DNA from: Mycobacterium simiae
GTDB lineage: Bacteria; Actinomycetota; Actinomycetes; Mycobacteriales; Mycobacteriaceae
Assembly (NCBI RefSeq): GCF_010727605.1
Contig: NZ_AP022568.1
Location: 3,410,001 to 3,474,000 of the forward strand
Length of the DNA stretch: 64,000 nt
Direction of reading: 5' to 3'
Below, in pieces: positions 5,481 to 33,976 of the stretch. Every line of letters starts with the position of its first letter. The first letter of the stretch is position 1. The notes beneath the pieces were generated by a model, which had not been told where the DNA came from, did not search any database, and saw only the letters and a program-made list of their open reading frames with translations. The position numbers were made by a program, and so were the translations under genes.

Positions 5481-5495
5481 GAGAATGATATTCTC
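5481..5495. promoter_or_regulatory. Candidate operator GAGAAT-N3-ATTCTC, site 1
   Basis: A perfect 6-3-6 palindrome (GAGAAT-GAT-ATTCTC) lies 31 bp upstream of the first fadE start. The same 15-bp pattern recurs at 33962 (perfect) and 12364 (one mismatch), with looser copies at 12187 and 33407-33443. The size and symmetry fit a TetR-type operator covering the promoter of the fadE pair. Confidence 0.65.
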
Positions 5496-5526
5496 GCAGT
5501 GGCGGTGACGACAGGAGGCGGGCCCA

Positions 5527-6525
5527 ATGCTGTTGGAGTTCGATGCTGATCAGCGACTGTGGCAGGACACGGTGCGCGACGCCGTCGCCAAGCAGTGCCC
5601 GCCGTCGCTGGTGCGAAGCGTGGCCGAGGACGGCGTCGACCCGAGCCCGCTCTGGAAATCGTATGTAGACCAGGGCTGGACCGAGCTCAACGAGTCGGAC
5701 AGCGCCGTCGAGCTGGCCATTCTGCTCGAAGAGCTCGGCCGCGCGACCGATCCCACGCCATTTCTGGCCACCATGAGTCAGTTCGCGCCGCTGGCCGGGG
5801 ACCGCTTCGACCCGCACCAGTCGGGCACCGCCGTCTACGGCGGGGTGGCGGCGCACCGCAACGCAGACGGATGGGTGCTGGACGGAACTGCGCGCCACGT
5901 GCTCGACGGTGACCGCGCGGACCGACTGGCCGTGGTGACCGACGCCGGAGTTTTCCTCGTAGCGTCCAGTCAGGTGTCCGCCCGGCGCGCCGCGGTGTTC
6001 GACCCCGTGCTGCACGTCGCTGATCTGTCGTTTGCCGATGTGCGGGTACCCGACCGCGATCGGCTGACCGTCGATGCCGAACGCGCACATCACCTCGCGC
6101 TGACCGGGATGGCCATCACGATGGTCGGTGCCTGCCAACGCATCCTCGACCTCGTGCTCGAACACGTCAAAAGCCGCCAACAGTTCGGCGTTGCGATCGG
6201 AACTTTCCAGGCCGTGCAACACAAGGCAGCCGACATGCACGTTGCGGTGGAACGGGCCCGGGCGCTGGCCTACTTCGCCGCATTGACGATCGCTGCCGAC
6301 GATCCCCGCCGCCGGCTGGCCGCGGCGATGGCCAAGGCCTCGGCGGGGGAGTGTCAGTCGCTGGTGTTCCGGCACGGTCTTCAGTTGCACGGCGCGATGG
6401 GATTCACCTGGGAGAACGATTTGCAGTTCGCGTTGAAACGGGCCAAGGCCGGGGAGCTGATGCTCGGCGGTGCTGCCGAGCACCGCGCGCGGATCGCGGA
6501 GGAATACCGTGCAGCTGACTTTTGA
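5527..6525 (+). CDS. Acyl-CoA dehydrogenase, smaller subunit type (FadE)
   Basis: FAD-dependent acyl-CoA dehydrogenase-like protein of 332 aa, shorter than the usual ~390. The N-terminal helical domain is compact, the middle beta domain is reduced (about 115-180), and the C-terminal domain keeps RQQFGVAIGTFQAVQHKAADMH and LQLHGAMGFTWENDL. This shape matches one partner of mycobacterial FadE heterotetramers, where two unequal subunits share the active sites and act on CoA esters of sterol side chains or similar. The next gene, which overlaps by 17 bp, would be the other partner. An AGGAGG ribosome binding site precedes the ATG, and a palindromic operator lies just upstream. The substrate is not known. 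Confidence 0.88.
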   Translation: MLLEFDADQRLWQDTVRDAVAKQCPPSLVRSVAEDGVDPSPLWKSYVDQGWTELNESDSAVELAILLEELGRATDPTPFLATMSQFAPLAGDRFDPHQSGTAVYGGVAAHRNADGWVLDGTARHVLDGDRADRLAVVTDAGVFLVASSQVSARRAAVFDPVLHVADLSFADVRVPDRDRLTVDAERAHHLALTGMAITMVGACQRILDLVLEHVKSRQQFGVAIGTFQAVQHKAADMHVAVERARALAYFAALTIAADDPRRRLAAAMAKASAGECQSLVFRHGLQLHGAMGFTWENDLQFALKRAKAGELMLGGAAEHRARIAEEYRAADF

Positions 6526-7696
6526 TTCTGACGTCGAGGAGTTTAGGGCCGAGTTTTCGGCGTTCCTCGACGAGAATCTGCCTGCCGCAAACGAAACGCT
6601 CGAACGGCCGCGATCGGTGTCGCACATGCCGCAGTGGGCGCGCGACTGGCAGCGACTGCTGTTCGACAACGGCTGGCTGCTGCCCAGTCAGCCGCCGGAA
6701 TTCGGCGGGCGCAACGCGACGGTAATTCAGCAATTCGTCTATCTCGAGGAACTCAGCCGGCGGCGGATCTACCACAGTTTCAACCCGCAGGGCGTGAATA
6801 TCGTTGGGGCTTCCCTCTTGTCGTTCGGCACCGAGGAGCAGAAGCGCCGCTGGGCGGTGCCGATCCTGCGCGGTGAGATCACCGCATCACTGGGCATGAG
6901 CGAGCCCAGTGCGGGCTCGGACCTTGCGTCGCTACGCACCCGCGCTGTTCGCGCAGCTGACTCAGCAGGCGATCACTTCGTGATCAACGGGCAAAAGGTG
7001 TGGACCTCGGGTGCCCATGATGCAGATGTCCTGCTGACGTTCGTACGCACGAACCCAGATGTGCCGAAGCACAAGGGAATCAGCGTGCTGATCGTCCCCA
7101 CTGCAACCCCCGGAGTCGTGTGCCGGCCGTTCCCGTCCATCTGTGGTGCCGACGACCTGGATTTCAATGAGGTGTTCTTCACCGATGTCCGGGTGCCGGC
7201 GGAGAATTTGGTGGGCGAGGTTGACCAGGGCTGGCAGGTCGCCAACGGGTCACTCGGCCACGAACGGACGATGATGTGGCTCGGCTTCGCCGATCGGCTG
7301 GAGAACATGATTGCCGACTTCCACCCCTACACCGAGGTCGAACGCGACCAGTACGCCAGCACGATCATGGACAAGCAGGCACTGCGCCTGCTGGGTTCCG
7401 CGGCGCTGGCCCGTGCGGCACGCGGCGAAGACGATGTGGCCGCGATCTCGGTGCTCAAACTGCTCGGGTCCGAGGCCGAGTTGCGGGGCATGGAACTGGC
7501 ACTGACCGCCGCGGGTTCCGACGGGCTCATTCACCCGGGGCAGACCGGGCCCTACGCGCACATGAACCTCGATCACTATTTCGCCAGCTGGTTCGACCGT
7601 TATGCGCGAAGCTTTTCCGGCACCATAGCCGGCGGCACCTCCGAGATCCAGCGCAACATCATCGCGCAGCGCGTACTGGGCCTGCCCCGCGGCTAG
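6509..7696 (+). CDS. Acyl-CoA dehydrogenase, larger subunit type (FadE)
   Basis: Full-length acyl-CoA dehydrogenase of 395 aa. It has the middle-domain flavin/substrate motif ITASLGMSEPSAGSDLASL, the INGQKVWTSGAHDAD region and the C-terminal FSGTIAGGTSEIQRNIIAQRVLGLPRG. The position of the MCAD-type catalytic glutamate (the EGT loop) is a glycine here, as in many FadE proteins that use a different glutamate or a partner subunit. I chose the GTG at 6509, which has GGAGG before it and overlaps the end of the upstream fadE; the frame is open to 6470. Translational coupling and shared ancestry suggest a heteromeric enzyme with the preceding gene. Confidence 0.9.
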   Translation: MQLTFDSDVEEFRAEFSAFLDENLPAANETLERPRSVSHMPQWARDWQRLLFDNGWLLPSQPPEFGGRNATVIQQFVYLEELSRRRIYHSFNPQGVNIVGASLLSFGTEEQKRRWAVPILRGEITASLGMSEPSAGSDLASLRTRAVRAADSAGDHFVINGQKVWTSGAHDADVLLTFVRTNPDVPKHKGISVLIVPTATPGVVCRPFPSICGADDLDFNEVFFTDVRVPAENLVGEVDQGWQVANGSLGHERTMMWLGFADRLENMIADFHPYTEVERDQYASTIMDKQALRLLGSAALARAARGEDDVAAISVLKLLGSEAELRGMELALTAAGSDGLIHPGQTGPYAHMNLDHYFASWFDRYARSFSGTIAGGTSEIQRNIIAQRVLGLPRG

Positions 7697-7712
7697 TGCT
7701 TCGCCCTGACTC

Positions 7713-8282
7713 TCAAACCGGTTCGAACTTGGTGATCAGCCAGGCGCCGTTGACTTTGGTCAAACTGACCAGCACGCTGCTCGACGACATCGCGGGGTCG
7801 GGGTTGTCCTTGCTGGTGGTGCTCTGATCGACCAATACCAGCACCACGGCCGAGTCCGGGTGTAGTTCCTGGACCGCGGCCCCCAGTACCCGCGCGTTGG
7901 TCTTCAGCGACTTCTGTTTGGCCGCCGGTGCCACGATCTGTTCGGTGAACTGGTTGTAGTACGACAAAAAGTCCCCGGACAGGTGGGACTTGGCGGCGGC
8001 GAAGTCTTTGTCCAGCGAGTCGGGTGAGTACGACAGCAGGGCGACGGTTCCGTCCGAAGCCGAACTGACAACGGCGTTGGCGACGCTGGCGTTGGTTTGC
8101 TGGTCGGGCCGGTAGTCCTTGAAGTACAACCATGCTGCCGCCCCGCCGGACAGCAGCAGGAGCGAAATCAAGAGAAGGGGAACGGATTTCGCCTTCAGCC
8201 AGGCGCGAAAGTCGCCAGGCCTGCTCCGTTCCGGTTGTTCTGCAGCGTCGGCGGCGTCGCTGTCGCGGTCGTCCTCGCTCAT
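7713..8282 (-). CDS. Mce-associated membrane protein (Mam), copy 1b
   Basis: Single-pass membrane protein of the Mam type, 189 aa from the ATG at 8282. A hydrophilic cytoplasmic start is followed by one helix (about residues 36-55), then an extracytoplasmic domain with [27 protein letters not shown] and [16 protein letters not shown]. Mam proteins are encoded with mce operons and, where studied, stabilise Mce transport complexes. The start codon overlaps the stop of the upstream partner (ATGA), so the two are coupled. A clear paralogue with the same motifs lies at 24330-24977. The upstream in-frame extension to 8351 is inside the partner gene and is not used. Confidence 0.85.
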
Positions 8283-9214
8283 GGAATGAACTCCAGTTTG
8301 GACATCTTGTACTGGCCGCCGTCCTCGGTGACTGTGACCTTGAGCCGCCACCTGCGCGGTTCGTCCTTGGCGCCCGCGGCGTTGGTGATCCGCGACGTCG
8401 CCGCGACCAGCACTACGGCAGAATTCCCGTCCATGGATTGCACGGCGGCGGCCGTGACGTTTCCCTCGGTGACCACTTTGGACTGCTCAACGACGGTGAT
8501 GAAATCCTTTGCGCGCTGCTGGAAATCGTCCCGGAACTGTCCGGTTGAGCTATCGATTACCCGCTGGACGTCCTCCTTGGCCCGATTGAAGTCCAAGGAA
8601 GTCATGTTGACGACGCCTTGTTTTGCTCCGGCGAGGAAATCTGCGGCGCGCTGGTTACGCTCGCTGATTTCATGACGCTGCCACATCATGTAAACGCTGG
8701 CCGCGACGAAAACGCAGATGAGGACGACCGCGGCCGCCTTCCACGTGACGGACCAGGATGGCAACCGCAACCGGCGCCGGGAACGGGCTGACTCGGATTC
8801 CGGTTCGGCGTCTTCGGCGGTTTCGCGGGACGTCGCTACTTCGGCGTCCTCGGTTTCCTCCGGGTTTTCGGCGTCGTCCGGCGTTTCGGCGGGTTCGTCC
8901 TGCGTCTCGGCTTCATCGGCGTTGGTGTCGACCGGGTCTTCGTCGGCGGCCGGGACGACCTGGGTCGCCGCGGGCTCTTCAGTGGTCTGCGCCTCGGTCT
9001 CGCCGGCGTCGTTTTTGGAGTCGGCTTCGGGATCTTCTTGGGTGGCTTGGGCCAGCGCCTCGCGCCGGAGCCGGGCGGCACGGGCGCGGGCACGCGCGGC
9101 AGCGGCCAGTGCTTCGGCTTCGGCGGCTTCCGCTTCGGCTTCGGCTATCAGCGCCATGGTGTCGGCTTTCGATGTCGCCGAATTCTGCGGCGGCGTCTTC
9201 TTCGCCTCAGCCAC
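8279..9214 (-). CDS. Mce-associated membrane protein (Mam), copy 1a, with long acidic Ala/Glu N terminus
   Basis: Single-pass Mam-type protein of 311 aa. Residues 20-55 form an Ala/Glu/Arg-rich likely coiled coil, and 56-145 are very acidic and low in complexity. Around 148-155 comes a basic stop (RSRRRLRLP), then the membrane helix (about 158-180) and an extracytoplasmic domain with [24 protein letters not shown] spacing ([14 protein letters not shown]), [17 protein letters not shown] and [11 protein letters not shown]. It is the first gene of a two-gene operon with 7713-8282. The paralogue at 24974-25828 has the same order of parts. The acidic cytoplasmic tail has no catalytic motif; contact with Mce or cell-envelope machinery is inference. 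Confidence 0.83.
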
Positions 9215-9249
9215 CTCGCGTACTCCCCGTTGCTGAACGTCTCACGCGG

Positions 9250-9678
9250 CTACCATCGCATGAGCGAGAACGGGTATGTGATAGTCCCCCCTGGTGCGCC
9301 ACCACATCCCGTGTCGAACGTCGAGTCGACCTGACCGGCCAGTGTCACCGCGTCCCATGAATAAACGTCATGGGAGGGAAAGAACTGGACCACGCAACGC
9401 ACGCCGTCGGGGACGTCGACGACCATGGTGTAGCGACCGTTGGCGAGGTGAGCATCTGTCTTCCAGGGCGCCGCTTGCCCGTTGGGTTGCGGAATCGCTT
9501 GCACGGTCAGGCATCCCGGCGCTTTCGGAACGCACGGGCTCAGCGACCAAATCCAGCTGTGGCCGGGATCGCGGTTTGTGTCGACCCGGTAGTTGCCAAT
9601 GATCATGTCCGCGTGGGCGGTCGGCGTGACCGTCAGCGCGGCCGTGGCCAGCGCGAAGCTCGCAGCGAGAGTCTTCAC
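9250..9678 (-). CDS. Secreted protein of unknown function
   Basis: Exported protein of 142 aa. Residues 1-23 form a Sec signal peptide (hydrophobic core AASFALATAALTVTPT, cleavage after AHA). The mature part has four cysteines (CVPKAPGC, RCVVQF, TGCGG) that could form two disulfides and a Trp-rich start (HSWIWSLSPC), typical of small mycobacterial exported beta proteins. It lies 35 bp after the Mam pair on the same strand and could precede them in an operon. No catalytic motif is seen, and I do not recognise the family. Confidence 0.75.
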   Translation of the reverse strand: MKTLAASFALATAALTVTPTAHADMIIGNYRVDTNRDPGHSWIWSLSPCVPKAPGCLTVQAIPQPNGQAAPWKTDAHLANGRYTMVVDVPDGVRCVVQFFPSHDVYSWDAVTLAGQVDSTFDTGCGGAPGGTITYPFSLMRW

Positions 9679-9791
9679 CGACGTGTCTCCCCTCTCCGGA
9701 CGCGCTCGACGTGAATATATAGCGGGCGGCCGTGCTGAACCGAGCTATTCGGACACATTGGAGCACTCAACCGTCGGTTCGTCCAGCCCCG

Positions 9792-11156
9792 CTAGTCGAT
9801 AATCGCGGCTTCTTTCCGCTCGGTGACCGGCCGGGCAAGTTCCTGCTCGTCGCAGATGCGCTGCAACTTCTCGAGCGTCTCGTCCAGGCCGGCGCCGATC
9901 GTGGGGCCGGGAGTGAACGTCGCCGGCAGCTTACGCATCCCCTGAATCACGCCGATGCTTTCGTAGTGCACGGCGCCCTCGGGGTCGCAGCGGTAGTCGG
10001 GCATCCGGGCCAACACCGCGGTCAGCATGGACTTGAATACCGTGCGTGCCACGTTGGAGCCGACACAGCGGTGCACGCCGATGCCAAAACTGAAGTGCCG
10101 GTTTCCTTTACGGTCGAGTACCACCTTGTCCGGGTCGGCGAAGACCGACGGGTCGCGATTGGCCATGGCCCACGAAATCCACAACCGTTCACCTTCTTTG
10201 AACTGGATGCCGTCGAGCTCGACATCGTCGGAGAAGGTCCGGCCGTCACCCGGTGCGGGGGTGAAATAACGCAGGAACTCCTCGGTCGCGGGGTCCAGCA
10301 GGGTATCGAGGTTGGCGCGTAGCCGCTCCCGCTCGTCGGGGTGCTCCGACAACCATTCCAGCGAGTGCGCGGTCAATGCGGTCGTGGTGTCAAAGCCGCC
10401 ACCGATGACGAGGCCGAGGTTGCCGAGGATTTCCAGGTCGGGGGCGGGCTCGCCGTCAATCCGCATCTGCAGCAGGCCGTTGACGATCCCGGGTCGCGGG
10501 TTCTGGCGGATCTCAAGCATGTTGTTGACCATGTCGAGGCCCATCTCTCGGTGCATCGCGGTCACCCGCTCGATATCGGGCGAGTGCTCCGGGGTGTACA
10601 CCGCCGCGTGCACCGGCTCGCTGTAGAGCTGCCACTTCTTCAGCGGGATGCCCAGCATGGCCAACGTGAGCACAGCGGGCACGATGTTGGCGAGGTCGTC
10701 GACGAAGTCGATGCTGCCCTCTTCGATCTTCTCGTTCAGGCAGGCGCGGGTCACGTCGTGAATAAACGGCTCCCAGCGCTTGACCGCGGCTGGCGACAGG
10801 TACGGATTGAGCACGGTGCGATAGATGCGGTGTTCCGGCTCATCCATTTCCAGGATGCCGCCGCGCACCGCGCTGACGCGGCTGGCGGTCGGGATCGAAA
10901 TCCCTTTGTAGCCTCGGCGTTCGTTGTTGATGTCGTGGTCGTTGGAGACTGCCGGGCAACGGGCGAGCTCGAACACCTCGTGGCTACCCGCCGCGACCCA
11001 GTGCCCGCCGTAGGTTTCGGTCCACGCCATCGGACACTTAGCGTGCATCTCCTCGGTGATCTGCTTGAACTGCGAGCGGTACTGCGGGGCATGACGGTCG
11101 AAGTGGTATTGGTGCTTCTTGCGTTCGTCGTCGCTCACGACATCGTCGACGCTCAA
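9792..11156 (-). CDS. Cytochrome P450
   Basis: Soluble class-I P450 of 454 aa. Conserved parts are the I-helix oxygen-activation motif GGGFDTTTAL, the K-helix ExxR in EEFLRYFTP, and the heme loop FSFGIGVHRCVG with proximal ligand C364. It receives electrons through a ferredoxin, very likely the one encoded 14 bp upstream. The frame is open to 11327 inside that ferredoxin gene, so I chose the TTG at 11156, which has AAAGGGAG before it; a GTG at 11138 is an alternative. It is the last gene of the SDR-ferredoxin-P450 operon. CYP family number and substrate cannot be assigned by eye; the neighbours suggest a lipid or terpenoid-like compound. Confidence 0.92.
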   Translation of the reverse strand: MSVDDVVSDDERKKHQYHFDRHAPQYRSQFKQITEEMHAKCPMAWTETYGGHWVAAGSHEVFELARCPAVSNDHDINNERRGYKGISIPTASRVSAVRGGILEMDEPEHRIYRTVLNPYLSPAAVKRWEPFIHDVTRACLNEKIEEGSIDFVDDLANIVPAVLTLAMLGIPLKKWQLYSEPVHAAVYTPEHSPDIERVTAMHREMGLDMVNNMLEIRQNPRPGIVNGLLQMRIDGEPAPDLEILGNLGLVIGGGFDTTTALTAHSLEWLSEHPDERERLRANLDTLLDPATEEFLRYFTPAPGDGRTFSDDVELDGIQFKEGERLWISWAMANRDPSVFADPDKVVLDRKGNRHFSFGIGVHRCVGSNVARTVFKSMLTAVLARMPDYRCDPEGAVHYESIGVIQGMRKLPATFTPGPTIGAGLDETLEKLQRICDEQELARPVTERKEAAIID

Positions 11157-11170
11157 GGTGCTGTCTCCCT

Positions 11171-11371
11171 TTAAGATTCGTCCGTGATCATGATTGCTTG
11201 TTCCGGGCACGAGTGCGCGGCCTCGCGAACCTGGTCTTCCTGATCGGCAGGCACGACCTCGCTGACCGCCGACGAACTGCCATCCATGTCGCTGAGCTCG
11301 AACGAATCCGGAGCAATCATGGCGCACAGGGTGTGGCCCTGGCAGCGTTGGGAATCAACCCGGACCTTCAC
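11171..11371 (-). CDS. [3Fe-4S]-type ferredoxin with His in the cluster motif
   Basis: Ferredoxin of 66 aa. The cluster motif is C10-x2-H13-x2-C16 ... CPEQAI: the second cysteine of a 4Fe ferredoxin is replaced by histidine, as in several mycobacterial P450-linked ferredoxins. The start is GTG at 11371 with GAGGAGG upstream. It lies between the SDR gene (53 bp) and the P450 gene (14 bp), so it is the natural redox partner of that P450. No ferredoxin reductase is present in the window, so electrons must come from one encoded elsewhere. Confidence 0.92.
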   Translation of the reverse strand: MKVRVDSQRCQGHTLCAMIAPDSFELSDMDGSSSAVSEVVPADQEDQVREAAHSCPEQAIMITDES

Positions 11372-11424
11372 GGTGTCCTCCTCGTGGGGCTGCTGTATGG
11401 CTGGTCGATGTCGGGTTTCTCGGC

Positions 11425-12126
11425 TCAGGTGTTTCGGCCGCCGTTGACGCCCAGCAACTGCCCGGTGATGTAGCCGGCTTCCTCGGAGACCAAAAATGCG
11501 CACGCCGCTGCGATGTCTTCCGGCTTGCCCATCCGCCGGACCGGCGTCCGGGCGATGGTCTCCTCGATGTTGCCGAGGAACCCGTTCTGTTCGGCGGCAC
11601 GCAACATCGGAGTGTCGATGAAGCCGGGCGGGATCGCGTTGACGGTGATACCGCTGGGCCCGTATTCGAGCGCCAGGGATTTCGTCAGCCCGTTGACCGC
11701 GGATTTCGCGGCCACGTAATGACTCATATAGGGGGCGCCCGAATGCGTACTCGATGACGAGATATTGACGATGCGGCCCCATCCCGCTTCGACCATGTCC
11801 GGCAGCACCGCCTGGATGGTGTGAAACACTCCGTGCAGATTGACGTCGATCACGCGCTGCCAGTCTTCGAACGTGAGGTTGCTGAAACGTTTGAACCCAT
11901 CCAGCCCGGCGGCGTTGACCAGGATCGCGACCGGCCCCAACCGCGCACGGATCCCGGACAGCGCGGCATCGACCTGAGCGCGATCGGTGACGTCGGCGGT
12001 GAAAGACAGATCGTCGTCCGCTGGTTTGAGATCGATGGTCGCGACGTCGAGGCCGTCGGCGCGCAGCCGTCGCGTGACCGCCAGGCCGATCCCGGATCCG
12101 CCGCCCGTGACGACCGCCGCCGTCAC
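11425..12126 (-). CDS. Short-chain dehydrogenase/reductase
   Basis: NAD(P)-dependent SDR oxidoreductase of 233 aa. It has the Rossmann motif VTGGGSGIG at residues 6-14, NAAG (about 71-74), the active-site serine in NISSSST, and YVAAK (Tyr/Lys pair). PPGFIDTPM and GQLLGVNGG complete the family pattern. An acidic residue after beta2 (DLKPADD) suggests preference for NAD over NADP. The GTG start at 12126 follows a weak AGAGG. It is the first gene of the SDR-ferredoxin-P450 operon and is divergent from the small ORF/CoA-transferase unit. Likely role: oxidising or reducing a hydroxyl/keto group on the P450 substrate. Confidence 0.9.
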   Translation of the reverse strand: MTAAVVTGGGSGIGLAVTRRLRADGLDVATIDLKPADDDLSFTADVTDRAQVDAALSGIRARLGPVAILVNAAGLDGFKRFSNLTFEDWQRVIDVNLHGVFHTIQAVLPDMVEAGWGRIVNISSSSTHSGAPYMSHYVAAKSAVNGLTKSLALEYGPSGITVNAIPPGFIDTPMLRAAEQNGFLGNIEETIARTPVRRMGKPEDIAAACAFLVSEEAGYITGQLLGVNGGRNT

Positions 12127-12186
12127 GACAAAACCTCTGAGGCAAGCGCGACCGTCTCACTCACAAAGAATCTCCTTCGCAATTAT

Positions 12187-12201
12187 GAGAACCTTACTCT
12201 C
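12187..12201. promoter_or_regulatory. Degenerate GAGAAT-N3-ATTCTC-like site upstream of SDR operon
   Basis: GAGAAC-CTT-ACTCTC keeps the outer bases of the 15-bp palindrome and has a flanking T/A pair, so TGAGA...TCTCA is symmetrical over 17 bp. It lies about 60 bp upstream of the SDR start, in the promoter region of the minus-strand operon. Confidence 0.4.
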
Positions 12202-12363
12202 ACACTGAAGTGACGTGCAACATCCGCGCGAAACACCCATTAGCCTGCGCGGAGGGGTATCGCGCTGCCCGGTATCGGTATTTGCAGTGCTGGTCAGAGC
12301 CCTTGTCCCATTCCTATGACTTTCTTGAATTCTCGAGACCCGACTGTAAGATTCGCCGGGGAC

Positions 12364-12378
12364 GAGAATGAAATTTTC
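12364..12378. promoter_or_regulatory. GAGAAT-N3-ATTTTC site upstream of small ORF and CoA transferase
   Basis: GAGAAT-GAA-ATTTTC differs by one base from the perfect palindrome found at 5481 and 33962. It is 27 bp before the small ORF start at 12405, a position where a repressor would block the plus-strand promoter. Confidence 0.55.
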
Positions 12379-12404: not shown

Positions 12405-12545
12405 ATGCCAGCTCAGGTCACACTGTCGGAAGTCGGGGAGGGCTCAGGCGTGGGGGTCGGCTGCCGATTGGTGATCGATGGCCGCCAGGTCGGCACTGAC
12501 AAACCATTCCCCGATGCCGTTCCCGCGCTGGGAGGCAACGAGTGA
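12405..12545 (+). CDS. Small ORF (46 aa) coupled to CoA transferase
   Basis: A 46-codon frame starts with ATG at 12405 after GAGGAG and ends at 12545 in GTGA, overlapping the GTG start of the CoA-transferase gene. The peptide is Gly/Val-rich and acidic (VGEGSGVGVGCRLVIDG ... PFPDAVPALGGNE), with no signal peptide or membrane helix. It resembles nothing I know. The ribosome binding site, the 4-bp overlap and the operator-like palindrome 27 bp upstream all support a real translated gene. It may mainly serve to couple translation. Confidence 0.6.
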   Translation: MPAQVTLSEVGEGSGVGVGCRLVIDGRQVGTDKPFPDAVPALGGNE

Positions 12546-13747
12546 GGCCGTTGGAAGGCATCCGGGTCCTCGAGGTCGCCATGTATGGGTTCGTTCCATC
12601 GGCGGGTGCGGTGCTGGCCGAATGGGGCGCCGACGTGGTCAAGGTTGAGCACGCGGTGACGGGCGATCCGCAGCGGGGCCTTCGGCAGACGGGCATGTTG
12701 CGCGTCGAAGGCGAGCCGAATCCCAACATTGAGCACGCCAATCGCGGCAAACGCAGCGTCGGGCTGGACATGTCGGTTCCCGAGGGCAAGGAAGTGCTCT
12801 ACGAGCTGGCCCGCCGCTCGGACGTGTTCTTGACCAGCTTCCTGCCGGGCGCCCGGCAGAAGTTCGGCATCGACGTCGACGACATACGGTCCGTGAACCC
12901 GTCGATCATTTACGCGCGCGGCAGCGCGTTGGGGCCACGCGGCGAAGAGGCCACCAAGGGCGGCTACGACATGACGGCTTTCTGGTGCCGGGCCGGAACG
13001 GCCGCCACAATCACGCCGATGGGGATGCCCGGCATGATCGGGCCGCCAGGACCGGCCTACGGCGACACCATTTCTGGGACCAACCTCGCCGGCGGCATCG
13101 CCGCCGCGTTGCTTAAGCGCGAACGCACCGGCGAACCGTCGGTCGTCGACGTGTCGTTGCTGGGCAGCGGACTGTGGTCGATGGGCCACACCGTCGCATT
13201 GACCAAGCACCTGAACCAGCGACTGGAAGCGCTGCCACCCGGCGTGCACGGCGCACCCAACAACCCGTTGGTGGGGTTGTACACCACCTCGGACGGTCGC
13301 TACATCTCCTTCGTGATGATGCAGCCGACGAAGTTCTGGGCCGACGTTTGCCGGCACGTCGACCTACCCGAACTGGCTGAGGATCCCCGGTTCGCCACCA
13401 TCGAGCAGATCACTGCCAATACGCCTGAAGCCGTCGAGATCTTGACCAAGGCAATCGCAACCCGCACGCTGGCCGAGTGGAGCGAACGCTTTGCCACGCT
13501 GGCCGGCCCGTGGGCCCCGGTACAGGACACGTTGCAGGCCGCCGATGACGCGCAGATTCGGGCCAACGAATACATGGTCCGGGCAGGCGAACTCGAGCTG
13601 GTCGCCAATCCGGTCCAGTTCGATGTCACCGCACCGCAAACCGGGCCGGCACCTGGATTTGCCGAGCAAACCGACGAAATCCTGCAGGAATTGGGATTCG
13701 ACTGGGATCGCATCATCGAACTGAAGACGGTTGGCGCCGTCACCTAA
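12542..13747 (+). CDS. CaiB/BaiF-family (class III) CoA transferase
   Basis: Type III CoA transferase of 401 aa, which moves CoA between acids through an aspartyl-CoA intermediate. Signature parts: LEGIRVLEV, LAEWGADVVKVEH, NRGKRSVGLDM, KGGYDMTAFW with the likely catalytic D143, and GPAYGD followed by a long C-terminal domain. The frame begins with GTG at 12542 inside the end of the small ORF. In the company of a P450, SDR and FadE proteins it could make the CoA ester that enters beta-oxidation; a racemase role is the alternative for this superfamily. Confidence 0.88.
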   Translation: MRPLEGIRVLEVAMYGFVPSAGAVLAEWGADVVKVEHAVTGDPQRGLRQTGMLRVEGEPNPNIEHANRGKRSVGLDMSVPEGKEVLYELARRSDVFLTSFLPGARQKFGIDVDDIRSVNPSIIYARGSALGPRGEEATKGGYDMTAFWCRAGTAATITPMGMPGMIGPPGPAYGDTISGTNLAGGIAAALLKRERTGEPSVVDVSLLGSGLWSMGHTVALTKHLNQRLEALPPGVHGAPNNPLVGLYTTSDGRYISFVMMQPTKFWADVCRHVDLPELAEDPRFATIEQITANTPEAVEILTKAIATRTLAEWSERFATLAGPWAPVQDTLQAADDAQIRANEYMVRAGELELVANPVQFDVTAPQTGPAPGFAEQTDEILQELGFDWDRIIELKTVGAVT

Positions 13748-13961: not shown

Positions 13962-14144
13962 GTGAGGAAAGGCAGCATTGCCACGCCGGCGATAGCCGTC
14001 GAATTGCCGCTGGCCGCTGCACATTTCGTCGTCGGTAACAACCGCCCGGGCTCGTTGGTTGAACCGAACTTACCGCAGTCGTTGCGCAACAACAAGACTG
14101 TCAGTCTCGTAACGTTCGAAGGGGCGGACATCAGTGGCAACTAA
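13962..14144 (+). CDS. Leader ORF (60 aa) overlapping yrbEA
   Basis: A GTG-initiated ORF with GGAGG upstream runs to 14144 and overlaps the first 11 bp of yrbEA. The peptide has no signal sequence, membrane helix or motif that I recognise. The upstream 214 bp after the CoA-transferase gene hold no other gene; a CATAAT hexamer near 13881 could be a -10 element. The overlap suggests that it delivers ribosomes to yrbEA, whose own ribosome binding site is weak. It may instead be a chance ORF. Confidence 0.45.
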   Translation: MRKGSIATPAIAVELPLAAAHFVVGNNRPGSLVEPNLPQSLRNNKTVSLVTFEGADISGN

Positions 14145-25957: not shown

Positions 25958-25974
25958 TTCTCCAAGCAGGAGAA
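25958..25974 (+). promoter_or_regulatory. Hairpin covering the AGGAG upstream of a secreted-protein gene
   Basis: TTCTCC-AAGCA-GGAGAA can fold into a 6-bp stem with a 5-nt loop. It contains the only good Shine-Dalgarno sequence before the ATG at 25987. The spacing to the ATG (about 13 nt) is long. Confidence 0.35.
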
Positions 25975-25986
25975 TTTTCTTTTCGC

Positions 25987-26406
25987 ATGTGGCAAAGTAA
26001 TCGGGTGCGATTAATCGTGGCCCTATTTGCCGCGTTGCTCGGCGCCGGTGTGCTGGCGGCGCCGCCCTCTTTCGCCGGGCCGACGGTGTGTGACTATCCC
26101 GATTGCACACCGGGCATCATGCCGCATCAGGTCCTTGGGGCACCGTGTGAGAACACCACCTACTACGCCTTCGGTGTCACCGACGGTTATGTCTCGTTCG
26201 GCTCGCAGCCCGGCCGGCTGATGTTCTGCGGCTCGCCAAGGAGATATCAGCCCCGATGGTTCCGCTCGCCGCCGATGGCGGGAATCAAGGACGAAGGCGC
26301 CGCCTGCCCCATGTACCTGAACTACGTCGCGCAGTCGCCCGACGGGCTGTTCCTGGTCTGCATAGCCCATGACGGCATAACGAGCTGGGTCCGCGGCGAT
26401 ACGTAG
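25987..26406 (+). CDS. Secreted Cys-rich protein
   Basis: Exported protein of 139 aa with a signal peptide (1-30, core LIVALFAALLGAGVLA, cleavage after SFA). The mature part has six cysteines (VCDYPDC, APCEN, LMFCGS, GAACPMY, LVCIAH). PRWFRSPPMAG is followed by an ACPMYLNYVAQSPDGLFLVC segment. No enzyme motif. Divergent from the Mam pair and followed 48 bp later by another secreted-protein gene, probably as a unit. Confidence 0.78.
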   Translation: MWQSNRVRLIVALFAALLGAGVLAAPPSFAGPTVCDYPDCTPGIMPHQVLGAPCENTTYYAFGVTDGYVSFGSQPGRLMFCGSPRRYQPRWFRSPPMAGIKDEGAACPMYLNYVAQSPDGLFLVCIAHDGITSWVRGDT

Positions 26407-26879: not shown

Positions 26880-27491
26880 TCAGCTGGATGGCTTGGGTGC
26901 ATCCTGGCGTAAACCGAGCAGGCGCCGAATCATATCCGTGAGCCGAGCCAACAGTGTCTCGTCGTCGATGTCGGCGACCAGCGGGTGCATGACGGCGGTG
27001 CTGATGGCTCCGGAAAACATCGCCGCCTCGATCCGCCCGTCCAACCCCGCATCGCTCAGCAGCACCCGATACAGCCGGTCCATGAACCGCTGAAAGGGCT
27101 TGTGCTCAGCCAGCAGTCGTACGACCACGGGATCAAACTGCAACGTGCGGACCAGTCGTCGATCACGGACCGCCATGGCAACGACGTTTTCCAGCAGTGC
27201 GTCACGCGCTTGCGGACCGTTGCCGTGCGTCTCGGCATCTTCCAGGGCCGGCAACAATCGGCCGAGCTCCCGCTCGGTGACTGCGATGACGATCTGGTCT
27301 TTAGTTCGGAATTGGTGGTAGACAGCGGCTTTCGTGATGCCGACGGCGTCGGCGATCATTTGCAGCGAGGTACCGCTGACGCCATGCTGTGCGAACAGGT
27401 CGAGGGCGGCGTCGAGTACCCGCGTTCGGGCAGGGCTGTAGTCAACAATTCTCAGCTCTTCGCCGTCGACCGGCTGCCCCGCGGTGCCCAC
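26880..27491 (-). CDS. TetR-family transcriptional regulator
   Basis: TetR-type repressor, 203 aa. The HTH (about 20-66) reads VLDAALDLFAQHGVSGTSLQMIADAVGITKAAVYHQFRTKDQI. The C-terminal ligand domain is helical. It starts with GTG 27491 and is divergent from a four-gene membrane operon that starts at 27598. The 106-bp gap holds two related 16-bp palindromes, its likely operators, so it probably represses itself and that operon. Confidence 0.92.
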   Translation of the reverse strand: MGTAGQPVDGEELRIVDYSPARTRVLDAALDLFAQHGVSGTSLQMIADAVGITKAAVYHQFRTKDQIVIAVTERELGRLLPALEDAETHGNGPQARDALLENVVAMAVRDRRLVRTLQFDPVVVRLLAEHKPFQRFMDRLYRVLLSDAGLDGRIEAAMFSGAISTAVMHPLVADIDDETLLARLTDMIRRLLGLRQDAPKPSS

Positions 27492-27500
27492 GGACTGAGC

Positions 27501-27542
27501 CTAGACGAACGGCTATTGACCCTGGACTAGCCGATCGGCTAG
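27501..27542. promoter_or_regulatory. Paired palindromic operators between TetR gene and membrane operon
   Basis: CTAGCCGATCGGCTAG (27527-27542) is a perfect 16-bp palindrome. A second copy, CTAGACGAACGGCTAT (27501-27516), matches it at 13 of 16 positions. The starts are 26 bp apart. A TTGAC hexamer (27516-27520) lies between them and may be the -35 element of the plus-strand promoter. Confidence 0.65.
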
Positions 27543-27597
27543 CTTCGGTGGCGGGCCGAATGTACTCAGCTGAATTCGCGCTGGAGGGGAGTCACCG

Positions 27598-28383
27598 ATG
27601 GCCGACATGGGCGGGAGCCAGGCGAGGGCCCGCAAACCCCGGGTAGCAATGCCGCGACGGTCCGACGGTGAACTCATTCTGCTGTGGACCCTGCCCGCGG
27701 CGATGATCCTGTGGATCGCCGGTTTCCTGCTGTTTCCCGGTTTCAATCCGCCAATGTCACCGACCATGCCGGCGCAGCAAGTCGCCGCGTTCTACCGCGA
27801 TCCGGCCCACCTGCCAGAGATTCGCTACAGCATGATCATGTTCAACTGGTTCGGCGTATGCCTGGTTCCGATTCTGGCGCTGGTGATGGTGCAGATCCGC
27901 CGCATGGCACATCGGACGCCGATCTTCTCCTACGCGATGCTGGGGTGTGCGGCCGGTGGCCCGACGCTGTTCCTCGTCGCCAACGTCTGCTGGCTGTTGG
28001 CCGCCTTCCGCCCCGAGCGCAGCGCGGAGCTGACGCAATTGCTCAACGACCTGGCCTGGATCACGTTCACCATCCTGGTCCCGTTTCTCATTGGGCAGAG
28101 CGTAATCCTAGCTCTAGCAATCTTTTTCGATGATCAGCCGCGACCGGTATTTGGGCGTTGGGTCGCCTACTTCAACCTGGTGGTGGCCGCCGCCCTGGTT
28201 CCCGCGGCCTTTGTCGGGGTGTCGTTGACCGGTCCGCTTGCTTGGGACGGCTTCCTGTCGTTCTGGGTGAAAAACGTCGCCATCGGCGTCTGGATCATCG
28301 TGATGGGGTTTGTCCTAGGCCGGGCCGTGTATCGGGATCGATCCGAAAACCGGGCAAGCACAGACGAATTGATCAAAACATGA
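27598..28383 (+). CDS. Multi-pass membrane protein of TetR-linked operon
   Basis: Integral membrane protein, 261 aa, about six hydrophobic helices (near residues 29-49, 79-101, 112-135, 152-175, 190-213, 225-247). The N-terminal 25 residues are basic. No heme-His pattern, transporter motif or enzyme signature is apparent. ATG 27598 follows GGAGGGGAG. It is first in a tightly overlapping operon (ATGA with the next gene) of four membrane proteins under the divergent TetR, and weakly resembles the next gene in size and layout. Function not recognised. Confidence 0.75.
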   Translation: MADMGGSQARARKPRVAMPRRSDGELILLWTLPAAMILWIAGFLLFPGFNPPMSPTMPAQQVAAFYRDPAHLPEIRYSMIMFNWFGVCLVPILALVMVQIRRMAHRTPIFSYAMLGCAAGGPTLFLVANVCWLLAAFRPERSAELTQLLNDLAWITFTILVPFLIGQSVILALAIFFDDQPRPVFGRWVAYFNLVVAAALVPAAFVGVSLTGPLAWDGFLSFWVKNVAIGVWIIVMGFVLGRAVYRDRSENRASTDELIKT

Positions 28384-29800: not shown

Positions 29801-29803
29801 AGT

Positions 29804-30085: not shown

Positions 30086-30099
30086 CGGTCGCAGACCGC
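30085..30099. terminator. Short hairpin between convergent genes
   Basis: GCGGTC-GCA-GACCGC, a perfect 6-bp stem with a 3-nt loop, fills the 18-bp gap between the NorF-like gene and the convergent P450. No U-tract follows. It could end transcripts from both sides. Confidence 0.4.
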
Positions 30100-30103
30100 G
30101 GTG

Positions 30104-31399
30104 TTAGCCCACCGCCGCAACCGAATCGGCGGTCGTGAACGACAGGTGCAGTTCACTCAATCCACGCAGGATGTATGTCGGCTCATAGGTGTAACGCCGC
30201 TCGGTAGCCGGCCCGTGATGGGCTTCGTTGATCTCAATATGCGGCATCCGATCCAGGATGCGCTCGATGGAGACTCGGCCTTCCACGCGCGCCAGCGGCC
30301 CACCCGGACACGAGTGCACACCGCGGGCGAAGGCCATATGTTCGCGAACGTTCTTGCGGCGCAGGTCGAATTGGTGCGGGTTCTCGAACCGACGGGGATC
30401 GCGGTTGGCCGCACCCGGCAGCACCATCACCACGGTCCCGGCGGGCAGGTCCACGCCACCGATGTTGGTGTCCCTGACGACCAGCCGGGAGTCGCTCTTG
30501 ACCGGGCTCTCCATCCGCAGCGATTCCTCGATGAATCCGGGGATCAGGCTGCGGTCCTCCCGCAACTGCTGTTGCACCTCGGGCCGGTCGCCAAGCGCCT
30601 GCAGCGCCGCGCTGAGCAGCTTGGCCGTCGTTTCCTGGCCGGCGGCGAAAAGGAAAGTGGCCGAACGGACCACCTCGATCACCGCGGGCGTCGACCCGTC
30701 CGGGTACTTTGCTTCGGCGAGGTGGGTCAGCACGTCGCCGCGCGGTTCGCGCCGGCGATCTTCGATGTAGTTGCAAAACTTGTCGTCGAGCCACTCCAGC
30801 GGGTTGATCCCGACCGATTCGTGATCAAGAGCCCCCACGCGCGCGCCGGGACGGTCGGCGCCGAGAACCGAACGGAATTCCTTGTGGTCCTCCTCCGGCA
30901 CGCCGAGCAGGTCGGCGATCACCAAGGTGGCGAACGGCTTGGAGTATTCGGCGATGAATTCACACTCGCCGTTGTGCAGAAACTCGTCGAGCTGGCGGTC
31001 AGCGAGGCGCCACATGAATTCCTCGTTCTGTTTCAACCGGCTCGGAGTCAGCAGTTTGGCGAGCACCGAGCGCGCCTTGGTGTGATCGGGCGGGTCCATC
31101 GTGACCATGTGCTCGTTCATCGGGAAGTAGCTGCGGTGCTCATCGATCAGCGCCCCGATGTCGCCCCCCTCGGGCGTGAACGGCAGGGGCGGGAACGGCC
31201 CACCGAGTGCGACGATGTTTGAGAACGTCTCGGGGTCTTTGTAGATCTCGGTGGCTTCGGCATAGCCGGTGACCGCGACGACGCCGTGGTGCGGCAGCCG
31301 CAACACCGGGTTCTGGCTGCGCAAGTAGTCGAAGTAGGGGTGCGGATCTGGGACCAGCGACGGATCGGTGAAGAAGTCGATCGAGTCAAAGTCGGTCAT
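30104..31399 (-). CDS. Cytochrome P450
   Basis: Second P450, 431 aa from ATG 31399, which follows AGGAG (the frame is open to 31483). It has I-helix FAAGQETTAKLL, ExxR in EESLRMESP, and heme loop FARGVHSCPGG with ligand C364. PMNEHMVTMDPPDHTKARSVLAK is a typical substrate-site region of actinobacterial P450s. No ferredoxin lies beside it; the 3Fe ferredoxin at 11171 or others could serve. It is divergent from a TetR gene, with a nested palindrome between them, so it is probably the controlled gene. Substrate unknown. Confidence 0.92.
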   Translation of the reverse strand: MTDFDSIDFFTDPSLVPDPHPYFDYLRSQNPVLRLPHHGVVAVTGYAEATEIYKDPETFSNIVALGGPFPPLPFTPEGGDIGALIDEHRSYFPMNEHMVTMDPPDHTKARSVLAKLLTPSRLKQNEEFMWRLADRQLDEFLHNGECEFIAEYSKPFATLVIADLLGVPEEDHKEFRSVLGADRPGARVGALDHESVGINPLEWLDDKFCNYIEDRRREPRGDVLTHLAEAKYPDGSTPAVIEVVRSATFLFAAGQETTAKLLSAALQALGDRPEVQQQLREDRSLIPGFIEESLRMESPVKSDSRLVVRDTNIGGVDLPAGTVVMVLPGAANRDPRRFENPHQFDLRRKNVREHMAFARGVHSCPGGPLARVEGRVSIERILDRMPHIEINEAHHGPATERRYTYEPTYILRGLSELHLSFTTADSVAAVG

Positions 31400-31473
31400 C
31401 GAATTGCATCTCCTGGGCTGAGTTACCGCGCAACGTTGACGGCATGGGCGAGCCGCCCGCGATTTCGAAATAC

Positions 31474-31493
31474 TGCTGAGCACCTGCTTAGCA
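31474..31493. promoter_or_regulatory. Nested palindrome between P450 and TetR genes
   Basis: TGCTGAGCA-CC-TGCTTAGCA: two 9-bp elements, each symmetrical around its centre and together nearly an inverted repeat over 20 bp. It lies in the 185-bp divergent promoter region and is a good candidate operator for the TetR protein at 31585. Confidence 0.6.
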
Positions 31494-31584
31494 CGACGGT
31501 AATGTCGTGGTCAAGGTCACAACGCCGGGCCGCGATACGATTCCCGACGTCGGCAGGTGAGCGTGAAGAGCAGGGAGCAGCGGT

Positions 31585-32286
31585 ATGACATCGGCCCGCA
31601 GGATCGGCGCGCCGGACGCCAAGAACCGCGTCCTGCTGCTCGACGCGGCCGAACGATTGATGATCGAGGAGGGCTACGCCGCGGTCACGTCGCGCCGTCT
31701 GGCAAACAAGGCCGGGCTCAAGCCTCAGTTGGTGCACTATTACTTCCGCACCATGGAGGAACTGTTTCTCGAGGTGTTCCGGAGGCGCGCCGAAGAGGCG
31801 CTCGAAGTGCATGCCAAGCTGATGAAGTCGCCGCAGCCGCTGTGGGCGGTGTGGCGATTCGGGACCGATCCCGCGTTCACCCGCATTTCCATGGAATTCA
31901 TGGCGCTGGCCAATCACCGCAAGGATATGCGCGCCGAAATCGCTTACTACGCAGAACGATTCCGCGAAGAGCAACGCCAAGCCGTGACGGCCGCGCTGCA
32001 GCGTTACGGCGTGGACAACAAGGACATGCCGCCGGTGGTGTTCACCGTGCTGATGTCGAGCCTGTCGAGATTTCTGGTGCTCGAGCAGGCGGTCGGCATC
32101 TCCGCCGGGCACGCCGAAACCCGGCAGTTAGTCGAAAGTTACCTGCGCCGGCTGGAGGGCGAGCCGCAGCCGATTCCCGGAATACCGGAGGCGTGGGTGG
32201 TTCACCAGTTCCGCAGTGAGCACAGCACACCTTTGAGTCCGTCCTTGGACACGACGACGACGCCGTCCACCGCCAATACGCAGTGA
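31585..32286 (+). CDS. TetR-family transcriptional regulator
   Basis: TetR-type regulator, 233 aa. The HTH is at about 15-62 (LLLDAAERLMIEEGYAAVTSRRLANKAGLKPQLVHYYFRTMEELF). The C-terminal domain is helical to about 205. The last ~30 residues (HSTPLSPSLDTTTTPST...) look unlike a folded domain and are read from the antisense of the neighbouring gene, with an 85-bp overlap of 3' ends. It is divergent from the P450 gene and likely controls it. Confidence 0.9.
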   Translation: MTSARRIGAPDAKNRVLLLDAAERLMIEEGYAAVTSRRLANKAGLKPQLVHYYFRTMEELFLEVFRRRAEEALEVHAKLMKSPQPLWAVWRFGTDPAFTRISMEFMALANHRKDMRAEIAYYAERFREEQRQAVTAALQRYGVDNKDMPPVVFTVLMSSLSRFLVLEQAVGISAGHAETRQLVESYLRRLEGEPQPIPGIPEAWVVHQFRSEHSTPLSPSLDTTTTPSTANTQ

Positions 32287-32639
32287 AGTCCCGGCGTGCC
32301 GGGCTCGGTTCCGGTGCTCGCCACGACCATCGCGTACGCGTCCGGGTTGGTCATGTCCAGGTCGTAGGTCCACGGCTTGCCCGGGACGAGATCGACGTTG
32401 ACGTGCGGTGTGAACGAGTAGGGGTTGTGGCTGTAATCAGCAAATTTGTCCGGCTGGTGGTCCAGGTAATAAATGTCGGCGTAGAACGGTTTCTCCGCGG
32501 TGACGGCATACTTGACGTGATGCATGACCGGGTCGGCGTGGGCCTGTCCGGTGCTCATCGGCAGACCGGCGCTGACCAACAGCCCGGCCACGCTGAGGGC
32601 CGCCCCGAATGTCCGCAGCCTTTGCACGCTGGTCCTCAT
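32202..32639 (-). CDS. Exported protein with MmpS-like domain
   Basis: Exported protein, 145 aa from ATG 32639 after GGAGGAG. Signal peptide 1-36 (core FGAALSVAGLLVSAGL, cleavage after AHA). The mature part has HVKYAVTAEKPFYADIYYLD, WTYDLDMT and LHCVLAVDGVVVVSKDGLKGVLCSL. This pattern (beta strands ending in C...DG.V....G....C) is like the exported domain of MmpS proteins, here without their membrane anchor. The start overlaps the stop of the enoyl-CoA hydratase gene (ATGA), an odd partnership of exported and cytosolic products. Confidence 0.7.
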   Translation of the reverse strand: MRTSVQRLRTFGAALSVAGLLVSAGLPMSTGQAHADPVMHHVKYAVTAEKPFYADIYYLDHQPDKFADYSHNPYSFTPHVNVDLVPGKPWTYDLDMTNPDAYAMVVASTGTEPGTPGLHCVLAVDGVVVVSKDGLKGVLCSLRNW

Positions 32640-33382
32640 ATGGCTCCTCCGGCCGCCGGGCGCGGTTTGGCGTTTCGGTTCGTTACCCGCTCTGCGGCCT
32701 GCCAGTGCGCATCGGCAACCCACAGTCGTGCAAAGGATGCTATCGCCTCGTCCGGCGAAACACCTTTGATTACTCGTTTTATCTCGGCGGCCGGCTGCCG
32801 GGCCATCGACGTGGCGAGCGCCCGCCAGCCTTCCTCGAATGAGGCGCGCGGCAACACCACGTCGAACAACCCCATGCGCTCGGCCTCCGTGGCGTCGATC
32901 GTTTTGCCGCTGCCCGCCAACAGCAGTGCTCGACTCTTGCCGACGAGCGCGGCCAGCCGCTCGGCACCGCCCCACGCCGGCATGATCTCCAGGGTCACCT
33001 GGTTGAACGCGATGTTGACATCGCTTGCGGCGACGCGGATGTCGGCAGCCACGGCCACTTCGGCGCCACCGCCAAACGCGTGGCCGTTCAGTGCGGCGAT
33101 CACCGGAGCCGGGAAGTCCGCCAATTGGTCACAGATGGACCGCATCCGCTTCGCCATCGCTGCGGCTTCCTCTTCGGTGCGCAACGCGCTGAGTTCCTTG
33201 AGGTCACCGCCGGACACGAAAGCCTTGTCGCCGGCGCCTCTGATCACCAGGGCTCGGGCGCCGGAAGCAGCGTCGAGTGCCTTCTCCAGCTGGTCCATGG
33301 TGTCGAGCGCGATGGCATTGCGCGCGTGGGGGCGGTCGATGGTGAGTACCGCCAACCCATTGTCGAGCTCCAAATCCAGCAT
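32636..33382 (-). CDS. Enoyl-CoA hydratase/isomerase family protein
   Basis: Crotonase-fold protein, 248 aa from ATG 33382 after GAGGAG. Family parts: RPHARNAIALDTMDQL, AFVSGGDLKEL (first oxyanion-hole segment), ALNGHAFGGGAEVAVAADIRVA (second) and MPAWGGAERLAALVGKSRALLL. The usual PEIxLG...PGxGGTQ region reads VTLEIMPAWGG, so I cannot place the catalytic glutamates of a standard hydratase; it may be a different crotonase activity. It is translated together with the MmpS-like gene. Degenerate copies of the 15-bp palindrome lie upstream. Confidence 0.88.
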   Translation of the reverse strand: MLDLELDNGLAVLTIDRPHARNAIALDTMDQLEKALDAASGARALVIRGAGDKAFVSGGDLKELSALRTEEEAAAMAKRMRSICDQLADFPAPVIAALNGHAFGGGAEVAVAADIRVAASDVNIAFNQVTLEIMPAWGGAERLAALVGKSRALLLAGSGKTIDATEAERMGLFDVVLPRASFEEGWRALATSMARQPAAEIKRVIKGVSPDEAIASFARLWVADAHWQAAERVTNRNAKPRPAAGGAI

Positions 33383-33406
33383 GTTCGTTGCTCCTCGGAG
33401 AGCGTC

Positions 33407-33443
33407 GATATTGGCATTCTCGTGCGGCGAGAATAGCATCATC
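33407..33443. promoter_or_regulatory. Two half-conserved palindromes upstream of enoyl-CoA hydratase
   Basis: GATATT-GGC-ATTCTC (33407-33421) and GAGAAT-AGC-ATCATC (33429-33443) each keep one perfect half of GAGAAT-N3-ATTCTC, in opposite order, so ATTCTC and GAGAAT face each other 7 bp apart. They lie 25-61 bp upstream of the hydratase start and also before the LpqH-like gene on the plus strand. Confidence 0.4.
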
Positions 33444-33489
33444 GCTGCAGGCTGAGCGGGTGCCGGTGAACAACGTTAGGGGTGCTGCA

Positions 33490-33912
33490 GTGCAGAACCG
33501 ATTCGTCGCGGCCACCGCCGTCGCACTCGCTGTGGCCGGCCTCGGTGCATGCACCTCGCGACCGTCAACCCCGCTCTCCGGCACGGCGTCCATTACCGTC
33601 AACGGCACCGATGCGAATTTCCACATCGTGAAATGCAGCCAGCGGGAATGGACGCGAACGATCGACATCGGCGGCAACTTTTCCGGAGCCAGTCTGATCG
33701 TCGACATGGGAGCGCAACCAGCGTCGACGGAGTCGGTGCACATCCGAAATCTCGGCGGGTTCAACGGAATGTACGCCCGGGGCGACGGCGAGCAGGCGGA
33801 CACGAGCATGTCCGGCGACAGATTCACCGTCACGGGCACCGCGAACGGATTCAAGACCGACAAGCCGAACGAAGCCGCTTCGGCGCCCTTCAAGATCGTC
33901 GTCACCTGCTGA
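33490..33912 (+). CDS. LpqH-like (19-kDa antigen family) lipoprotein
   Basis: Lipoprotein of 140 aa. The lipobox is GLGAC with lipidation at C21. The mature part resembles the LpqH family: ITVNGTDANFHIVKCS, GASLIVDMG, SVHIRNLGGFNGMYARG and the end FKIVVTC, which in LpqH pairs the two cysteines. I chose the GTG at 33490 with AGGGG upstream; a GTG at 33463 would add nine residues. LpqH-type proteins are abundant surface antigens. Divergent from the enoyl-CoA hydratase gene and 86 bp before the amidohydrolase. Confidence 0.83.
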   Translation: MQNRFVAATAVALAVAGLGACTSRPSTPLSGTASITVNGTDANFHIVKCSQREWTRTIDIGGNFSGASLIVDMGAQPASTESVHIRNLGGFNGMYARGDGEQADTSMSGDRFTVTGTANGFKTDKPNEAASAPFKIVVTC

Positions 33913-33961
33913 CCCAGTGGTCCCCGCCGCCCGAAGGGCTTGTTGCGGCGACGACCTGCAA

Positions 33962-33976
33962 GAGAATAGTATTCTC
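33962..33976. promoter_or_regulatory. Candidate operator GAGAAT-N3-ATTCTC, upstream of amidohydrolase
   Basis: GAGAAT-AGT-ATTCTC is a perfect match to the palindrome at 5481. It ends 22 bp before the ATG at 33999, right in front of the AAAGGAGG ribosome binding site, where bound protein would block transcription. Confidence 0.65.

Follow-up and report, generated by a model that had tools for sequence, protein, structure and literature searches.

A GAGAAT-N3-ATTCTC palindrome as the probable operator of a TetR protein in a mycobacterial catabolic gene cluster

Here, we describe a palindrome, GAGAAT-N3-ATTCTC (GAGAATNNNATTCTC), that recurs before catabolic genes in a 64-kb stretch of mycobacterial DNA (the window, meaning the whole stretch analyzed) and in the collinear cluster of Mycobacterium sherrisii. 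It is probably (at a probability of about 0.8) the operator of TetR-A, a single-domain TetR protein encoded in the same cluster, the dimer of which would lie over the −10 box and be released by a ligand. The palindrome, its conservation, its placement on the −10 box, its recurrent target genes, and its joint inheritance with TetR-A are read directly from the genomes compared.

The window contains seven matches at no more than two mismatches, against a mean of 1.07 (largest, 6) in 100 shuffles. Six of them were counted as operators and are given here with a weaker upstream partner.

33962 to 33976, plus strand: perfect operator GAGAATAGTATTCTC, an exact palindrome, of the amidohydrolase/fadD transcript.
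5481 to 5495, plus strand: perfect operator GAGAATGATATTCTC, an exact palindrome, of the fadE pair.
12364 to 12378, plus strand: operator with one mismatch, before a small open reading frame (ORF) and a CoA transferase; the identical one-mismatch sequence occurs in M. sherrisii.
12187 to 12201, minus strand: degenerate operator (two mismatches) of the short-chain dehydrogenase (SDR) transcript; the M. sherrisii counterpart likewise has two mismatches.
33407 to 33421, minus strand: degenerate half of a paired operator (two mismatches), before the enoyl-CoA hydratase gene; recurs in most of 80 related loci.
33429 to 33443, minus strand: second degenerate half (two mismatches), 22 bp from the 33407 copy; recurs in most of the 80 loci.
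5460 to 5474, plus strand: weaker upstream partner GAGATTAATAATTTC (three mismatches), 21 bp from the main operator at 5481.

A preliminary description of the window had reported perfect copies at 5481 and 33962, one that was one base off at 12364, and degenerate ones at 12187 and 33407 to 33443, and all of these coordinates and grades were correct. It had also placed the copies within about 75 bp of start codons; the counted sites end about 22 to 60 bp from starts as called here (with a simple codon-score script, not a published gene finder). An alternative start of the enoyl-CoA hydratase ORF at 33442 is possible and would place the 33407 and 33429 sites inside the reading frame. The seventh match (25970 to 25984, two mismatches), absent from the earlier account, overlaps a GGAG Shine-Dalgarno-like stretch directly 5′ of the ATG at 25987; although many of the 80 loci contain it, it was discounted as an operator because of this overlap with a ribosome-binding site. 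A partner-like copy at 12166, which falls on a ribosome-binding site, is doubtful.

From 4244 rightwards (except 46.7 to 51.8 kb), the window is collinear with contig C19 of M. sherrisii at 84 to 91% nucleotide identity and therefore comes from a related species; the window and M. sherrisii have identical amidohydrolases (33999 in the window). The M. sherrisii genome (5.6 Mb) contains eight perfect palindromes, where base composition predicts 0.046, and none of a reversed control pattern. Seven of the eight lie inside 107 kb of C19 and the eighth is on contig C77. Within a 160-kb stretch of this genome, all 15 copies with at most two mismatches were outside predicted genes (intergenic share, 13.2%), one of them being the counterpart of the 25970 match. 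The preliminary description, which had read the palindrome as the shared operator of an undescribed regulon, had named two outcomes that would speak against it, occurrence at chance frequency and lack of conservation in related species. Neither was found, and together with the co-occurrence with TetR-A given below, the comparison supports that reading.

Two segments depart from the collinearity. Positions 46731 to 51797 are without long matches to C19 and are probably an insertion or a replaced segment, and the left end of the window (1 to 4225) is not collinear with C19 and is common to another genome, G242.

Conservation at orthologous promoters, a check proposed in the preliminary description, was found at the amidohydrolase and FadE-pair promoters. 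The palindrome stands 36 to 38 bp 5′ of the amidohydrolase start, with zero or one mismatch, in 80/80 related loci, and it is present at the FadE-pair promoter in all 11 genomes listed, C19 included. In the 80-locus alignment, the arms are invariant except for position 10 (A in 77), positions 8 and 9 are variable, and T6, A7, and T11 are kept throughout. T6, A7, A10, and T11 form a TANNAT −10 box 18 bp after TTGCGG, which places the operator over this box.

33943 to 33948, plus strand: probable −35 element TTGCGG of the amidohydrolase promoter, the second T of which is kept in 79/80 loci.
33967 to 33972, plus strand: probable −10 element TAGTAT (TANNAT) within the operator, 18 bp after the −35 element (T6, A7, and T11 in 80/80 loci, A10 in 77/80).

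All 11 genomes have T at position 9 of the palindrome in the FadE-pair promoter, giving TATTCT three bases further on. Among 105 oriented perfect sites (not independent of each other, the genomes being related), 99 have A7 or T9, and the remaining six, P450 promoters among them, have neither. The overlap with the −10 box would also suit a promoter or structural element without a dedicated regulator, or a palindrome that arose by chance; both are extremely improbable, as the two arms are fixed around variable central bases 8 and 9, the eight M. sherrisii copies far exceed the 0.046 expected, and 39 of the 42 genus genomes without TetR-A lack the palindrome.

Some promoters carry a second site. 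In 27/112 oriented promoters, mainly those of the FadE pair, a second FadE, and a ferredoxin, a GAGA begins upstream of the palindrome at a distance of 21 or 22 bp; this is the only enriched offset, and 38 other offsets (16 to 55 bp) account for nine occurrences altogether. In the window, the paired arrangement is seen at 5460/5481 (21 bp) and at 33407/33429 (22 bp, both degenerate), and such pairs likely hold two adjacent dimers separated by two helical turns. The degenerate copies of the preliminary description are real at their places, with a changed reading for the last two, which are halves of one paired operator.

TetR-A, the candidate regulator, is encoded at C19:310965-311621 of M. sherrisii (218 amino acids) and has a perfect palindrome on each side (310828 and 311693). 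Its TetR_N domain (C19:311064-311201) scores 33.8 bits against a cut-off of 24, and its predicted fold is an ordinary all-helical TetR fold, with Rv0078, RolR, EthR2, and FadR proteins as best matches. A copy with at most one mismatch lies in the 1.5-kb flanks of 29 of the 30 closest orthologue loci. The DNA-binding domain is 99.2% identical (41 sequences) and the rest of the protein 87.5%, with a recognition helix that is 99.8% conserved. In genome G242, which shares the left end of the window, TetR-A is encoded between two perfect palindromes about 29 kb to the left of this end; because of this, we infer that the genome of the window also carries TetR-A, about 29 kb to the left. Three genomes (G102, G181, and G268) have two TetR-A-like copies each (83 and 82%, 83 and 81%, and 76 and 61% identity) and 8, 8, and 10 perfect palindromes, respectively.

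The preliminary description had looked to a TetR gene near the palindromes. Such a gene was found in the cluster, the best candidate being TetR-A and neither of the TetR genes in the window. One of the latter, at 26880 to 27491, was rejected as regulator of GAGAAT-N3-ATTCTC since a different palindrome, CTAGCCGATCGGCTAG, lies in the divergent region upstream of it. That palindrome, at 27527 to 27542 between the TetR gene and a divergent gene (27598 to 28383), is likely the operator of that TetR protein itself. The other is TetR-B.

31585 to 32286, plus strand: TetR-B, rival regulator, with a Pfam TetR_N match and an orthologue in 202/248 genus genomes at an expect value (E) of ≤1e-50.

Joint inheritance was followed in 248 genomes of the genus, drawn from a larger group. 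TetR-A orthologues were accepted at E<1e-80, a limit placed, post hoc, in the gap observed between 1.3e-26 and 2.2e-84, and weaker matches (E about 1e-27 to 1e-3) were treated as other TetR proteins. TetR-A was found in 206 of the 248 genomes, 202 of which had at least one perfect palindrome, as did three of the 42 without it (Fisher p 2.6e-37, not corrected for kinship); the reversed control pattern occurred once each in 6/248. The three genomes with a palindrome but without TetR-A were G149 (see below), G071, with a single copy near a contig end, and G045, with a single copy inside a predicted gene. In a sample of 200 genomes of the order, 22/22 with TetR-A had two or more copies, and the palindrome occurred in 10/178 without it (nine with one copy and one with two); a 23rd match, in G316 (35% identity, E 3.9e-32), was counted among the genomes without TetR-A.

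Several points weigh against TetR-A as the regulator. It is not encoded within the 64-kb window, kinship inflates all genome counts, and four genomes (G057, G178, G090, and G206) have TetR-A but lack a perfect copy. One-mismatch copies stand before TetR-A in G057 and G178; neither the 3.2-Mb genome G090 nor G206 has a perfect copy in the genome or a copy beside TetR-A, and in G206 the recognition helix of TetR-A (locus L195) reads SGQSL instead of SRQSL, a single case. In G027 and G064, which have TetR-A and one perfect copy each, no good copy was found before TetR-A itself. Joint presence was dropped as a sole argument because the distribution of TetR-B and other cluster genes is largely the same. 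Binding, repression, and dimer pairing, like the presence of TetR-A in the genome of the window, are inferred from sequence.

Regulation of the palindrome by TetR-B, which adjoins the hydratase and amidohydrolase operators, is quite unlikely. TetR-B is located in the cluster and has orthologues in so many of the genomes that joint inheritance alone is indecisive, its recognition helix (99.2% conserved) is about equal to that of TetR-A, and G149 has TetR-B with eight palindromes, TetR-A not being found there. The missing TetR-A of G149 may, however, be an assembly gap, as the palindrome expected to precede it lies 80 bp from a contig end. No operator stands before the gene of TetR-B, G027 and G064 keep their perfect copies without TetR-B, and its whole DNA-binding domain is less conserved (90.0%, 76 sequences) than that of TetR-A (99.2%, 41 sequences). 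At loci L194 and L195 (G057 and G206), the TetR-A and TetR-B orthologues are divergent neighbors, whereas they are far apart in M. sherrisii. It is also unlikely that a third regulator, in or outside the cluster, binds the palindrome, with TetR-A merely one of its targets. Further TetR genes do occur in the cluster (C19:297662 and 323939) and in a kinase operon on C77, but TetR-A alone has an operator on both sides in M. sherrisii, and it has been retained in G027 and G064, which have few copies left.

With TetR-A as the regulator, a dimer would cover the −10 box at every target promoter, excluding RNA polymerase, and at some promoters, a second dimer would bind 21 to 22 bp upstream, two helical turns off. 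TetR-A would repress its own gene in most relatives. An intermediate of the pathway, perhaps an acyl-CoA thioester, would free the operator, and the whole pathway would be induced.

The window genes under or near the sites are as follows.

33999 to 35189, plus strand: amidohydrolase-like target gene, adjoining the operator in 80 loci; related cluster proteins match Amidohydro_2, and orthologues were named amidohydrolase in the preliminary description.
35315 to 36718, plus strand: acyl-CoA synthetase (fadD) of the amidohydrolase transcript, with AMP-binding Pfam matches; 3′ of the amidohydrolase in most fetched genomes.
5527 to 6525, plus strand: FadE of small-subunit type, with an acyl-CoA dehydrogenase C-terminal domain (PF00441); it scored below the cut-offs of the IpdE2 and PimD models.
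6509 to 7696, plus strand: FadE of large-subunit type (start by script); the longer ORF 6470 to 7696 contains three Pfam domains of acyl-CoA dehydrogenases.
11425 to 12126, minus strand: SDR, target (PF13561).
9792 to 11210, minus strand: cytochrome P450, possibly in the SDR transcript (PF00067).
12542 to 13747, plus strand: CoA-transferase family III, target (PF02515).
32636 to 33382, minus strand: enoyl-CoA hydratase, target (PF00378; start by script).
33490 to 33912, plus strand: 19-kDa-lipoprotein-like (LpqH-like) gene, divergent from the hydratase, possible target (PF05481 in ORF 33388 to 33912; start by script).

A copy at 14094, before an mce operon, was rejected as a separate palindrome, AGACTG-T-CAGTCT. 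This palindrome is perfect (14095 to 14107), lies 26 bp 5′ of the first yrbE-like mce gene and after TTGCGC, is unchanged in M. sherrisii, and is possibly the operator of another regulator.

Target genes were tabulated from 56 stretches of 11 genomes, which were those whose sites stood first in the scan and not a random draw (8/9 perfect sites for G035). In 11 genomes besides M. sherrisii, 73/75 perfect sites were outside predicted genes, at a median distance of 34 bp to the nearest start. Identities were assigned by Pfam for submitted proteins and, for the remainder, by BLAST to M. sherrisii or by eye. Recurrent targets in 12 genomes were as follows.

Amidohydrolase/FadD.
FadE pair and divergent amidohydrolases.
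Amidohydrolase and FadE, with divergently oriented carboxymuconolactone-decarboxylase-like and Rieske oxygenase genes.
TetR-A and a divergent FadE.
FadD/FadE, with a [2Fe-2S] ferredoxin gene in divergent orientation.
Thiolase and MeaB-like genes.
CYP150-like P450.
APH/EcKL-type kinase, SDR, and FadE operon, unlinked (C77).

In G035, a site also lies 5′ of a 2-oxoacid:ferredoxin oxidoreductase. The cluster further encodes a B12-dependent mutase pair, the best solved relative of which is 2-hydroxyisobutyryl-CoA mutase (4r3u, E 2.8e-152); methylmalonyl-CoA mutases are nearly as close (E 2.6e-144). The window P450 at 30104 to 31483 matches CYP150A6 (6dcd, E 8e-232), and the target P450 S295745 belongs to this CYP150 kind as well (E 9e-151). 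M. marinum CYP150A5 is reported to convert β-ionone to 4-hydroxy-β-ionone (PMC6237146). Because CYP150-type P450s occur with the mutase and a Rieske oxygenase, the analogy suggests, with low confidence, branched or alicyclic isoprenoids as the substrate. Our guess for the ligand is an acyl-CoA, weakly favored because some of the best fold matches of the TetR-A model bind acyl-CoA.

A wider proposal, tentative and more doubtful than the operator assignment, is that TetR-A governs a genus-wide, undescribed catabolic program with the scope of the cholesterol regulon, for another class of molecule (e.g., alicyclic or gem-dimethyl isoprenoids) and in response to one acyl-CoA signal. If this is true, Mce uptake, CYP150-type P450s, Rieske oxygenase, paired FadE, and a B12-dependent mutase of the 2-hydroxyisobutyryl-CoA-mutase kind would be switched on jointly, along with the distant kinase/SDR/FadE operon and, at least in G035, the 2-oxoacid:ferredoxin oxidoreductase. 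Under the operator assignment itself, an unexplained catabolic cluster of about 110 kb would become a defined regulon with a candidate regulator (in 206/248 sampled genomes), an exact operator, and a target list. The substrate would become approachable, as any compound able to free the palindrome of TetR-A is expected to be the substrate of the pathway or a derivative of it, and the promoters offer a checkable rule, with the operator centered on the −10 box and a second site two turns upstream.

TetR-A did not qualify as a KstR orthologue (21.1 bits against a model cut-off of 280), matched solved KstR and KstR2 chains at E 0.002 to 0.01, and shared 21% identity with KstR2 in the fold match (4w97; E 0.01 by sequence). 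The palindrome is presumably also unlike KstR and KstR2 sites. Known systems resemble the proposed role of TetR-A in different respects. KstR and KstR2 are TetR repressors with large lipid-catabolic regulons and palindromic operators (PMC4482099, PMC3920632). BkaR (Rv2506/MSMEG_4718) is a self-repressing mycobacterial TetR protein with a palindromic operator and nearby and distant targets, but its core, GTTA(N)T(N4)A(N)TAAC, differs from GAGAAT-N3-ATTCTC and sets the palindrome apart from the BkaR sites (PMC3920632). Mce3R, which represses an mce operon and lipid genes, is a double-domain TetR-type protein of about 406 residues with nonpalindromic 25-bp sites, whereas TetR-A has 218 residues and a palindromic operator (PMC11667970); Mce3R was excluded as regulator on the grounds of its nonpalindromic sites and two fused TetR units. 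KstR3 of Mycolicibacterium neoaurum, which negatively regulates a catabolic aldolase/DUF35 operon (atf1-chsH4-chsE6) separate from the main sterol cluster, probably differs from TetR-A in its targets (PMC10398937). Motifs for M. tuberculosis TetR genes are tabulated in PMC4482099, where the letters GAGAAT do not occur in the text, the logos being in separate figures. No paper on this motif or regulator/operator pair was recognized in the literature searched, with subscription journals mostly outside its scope. Repressors of the TetR family are well established in lipid catabolism (KstR, KstR2, BkaR, Mce3R, and KstR3), and what would be new here is the proposed regulon of TetR-A and its palindrome.

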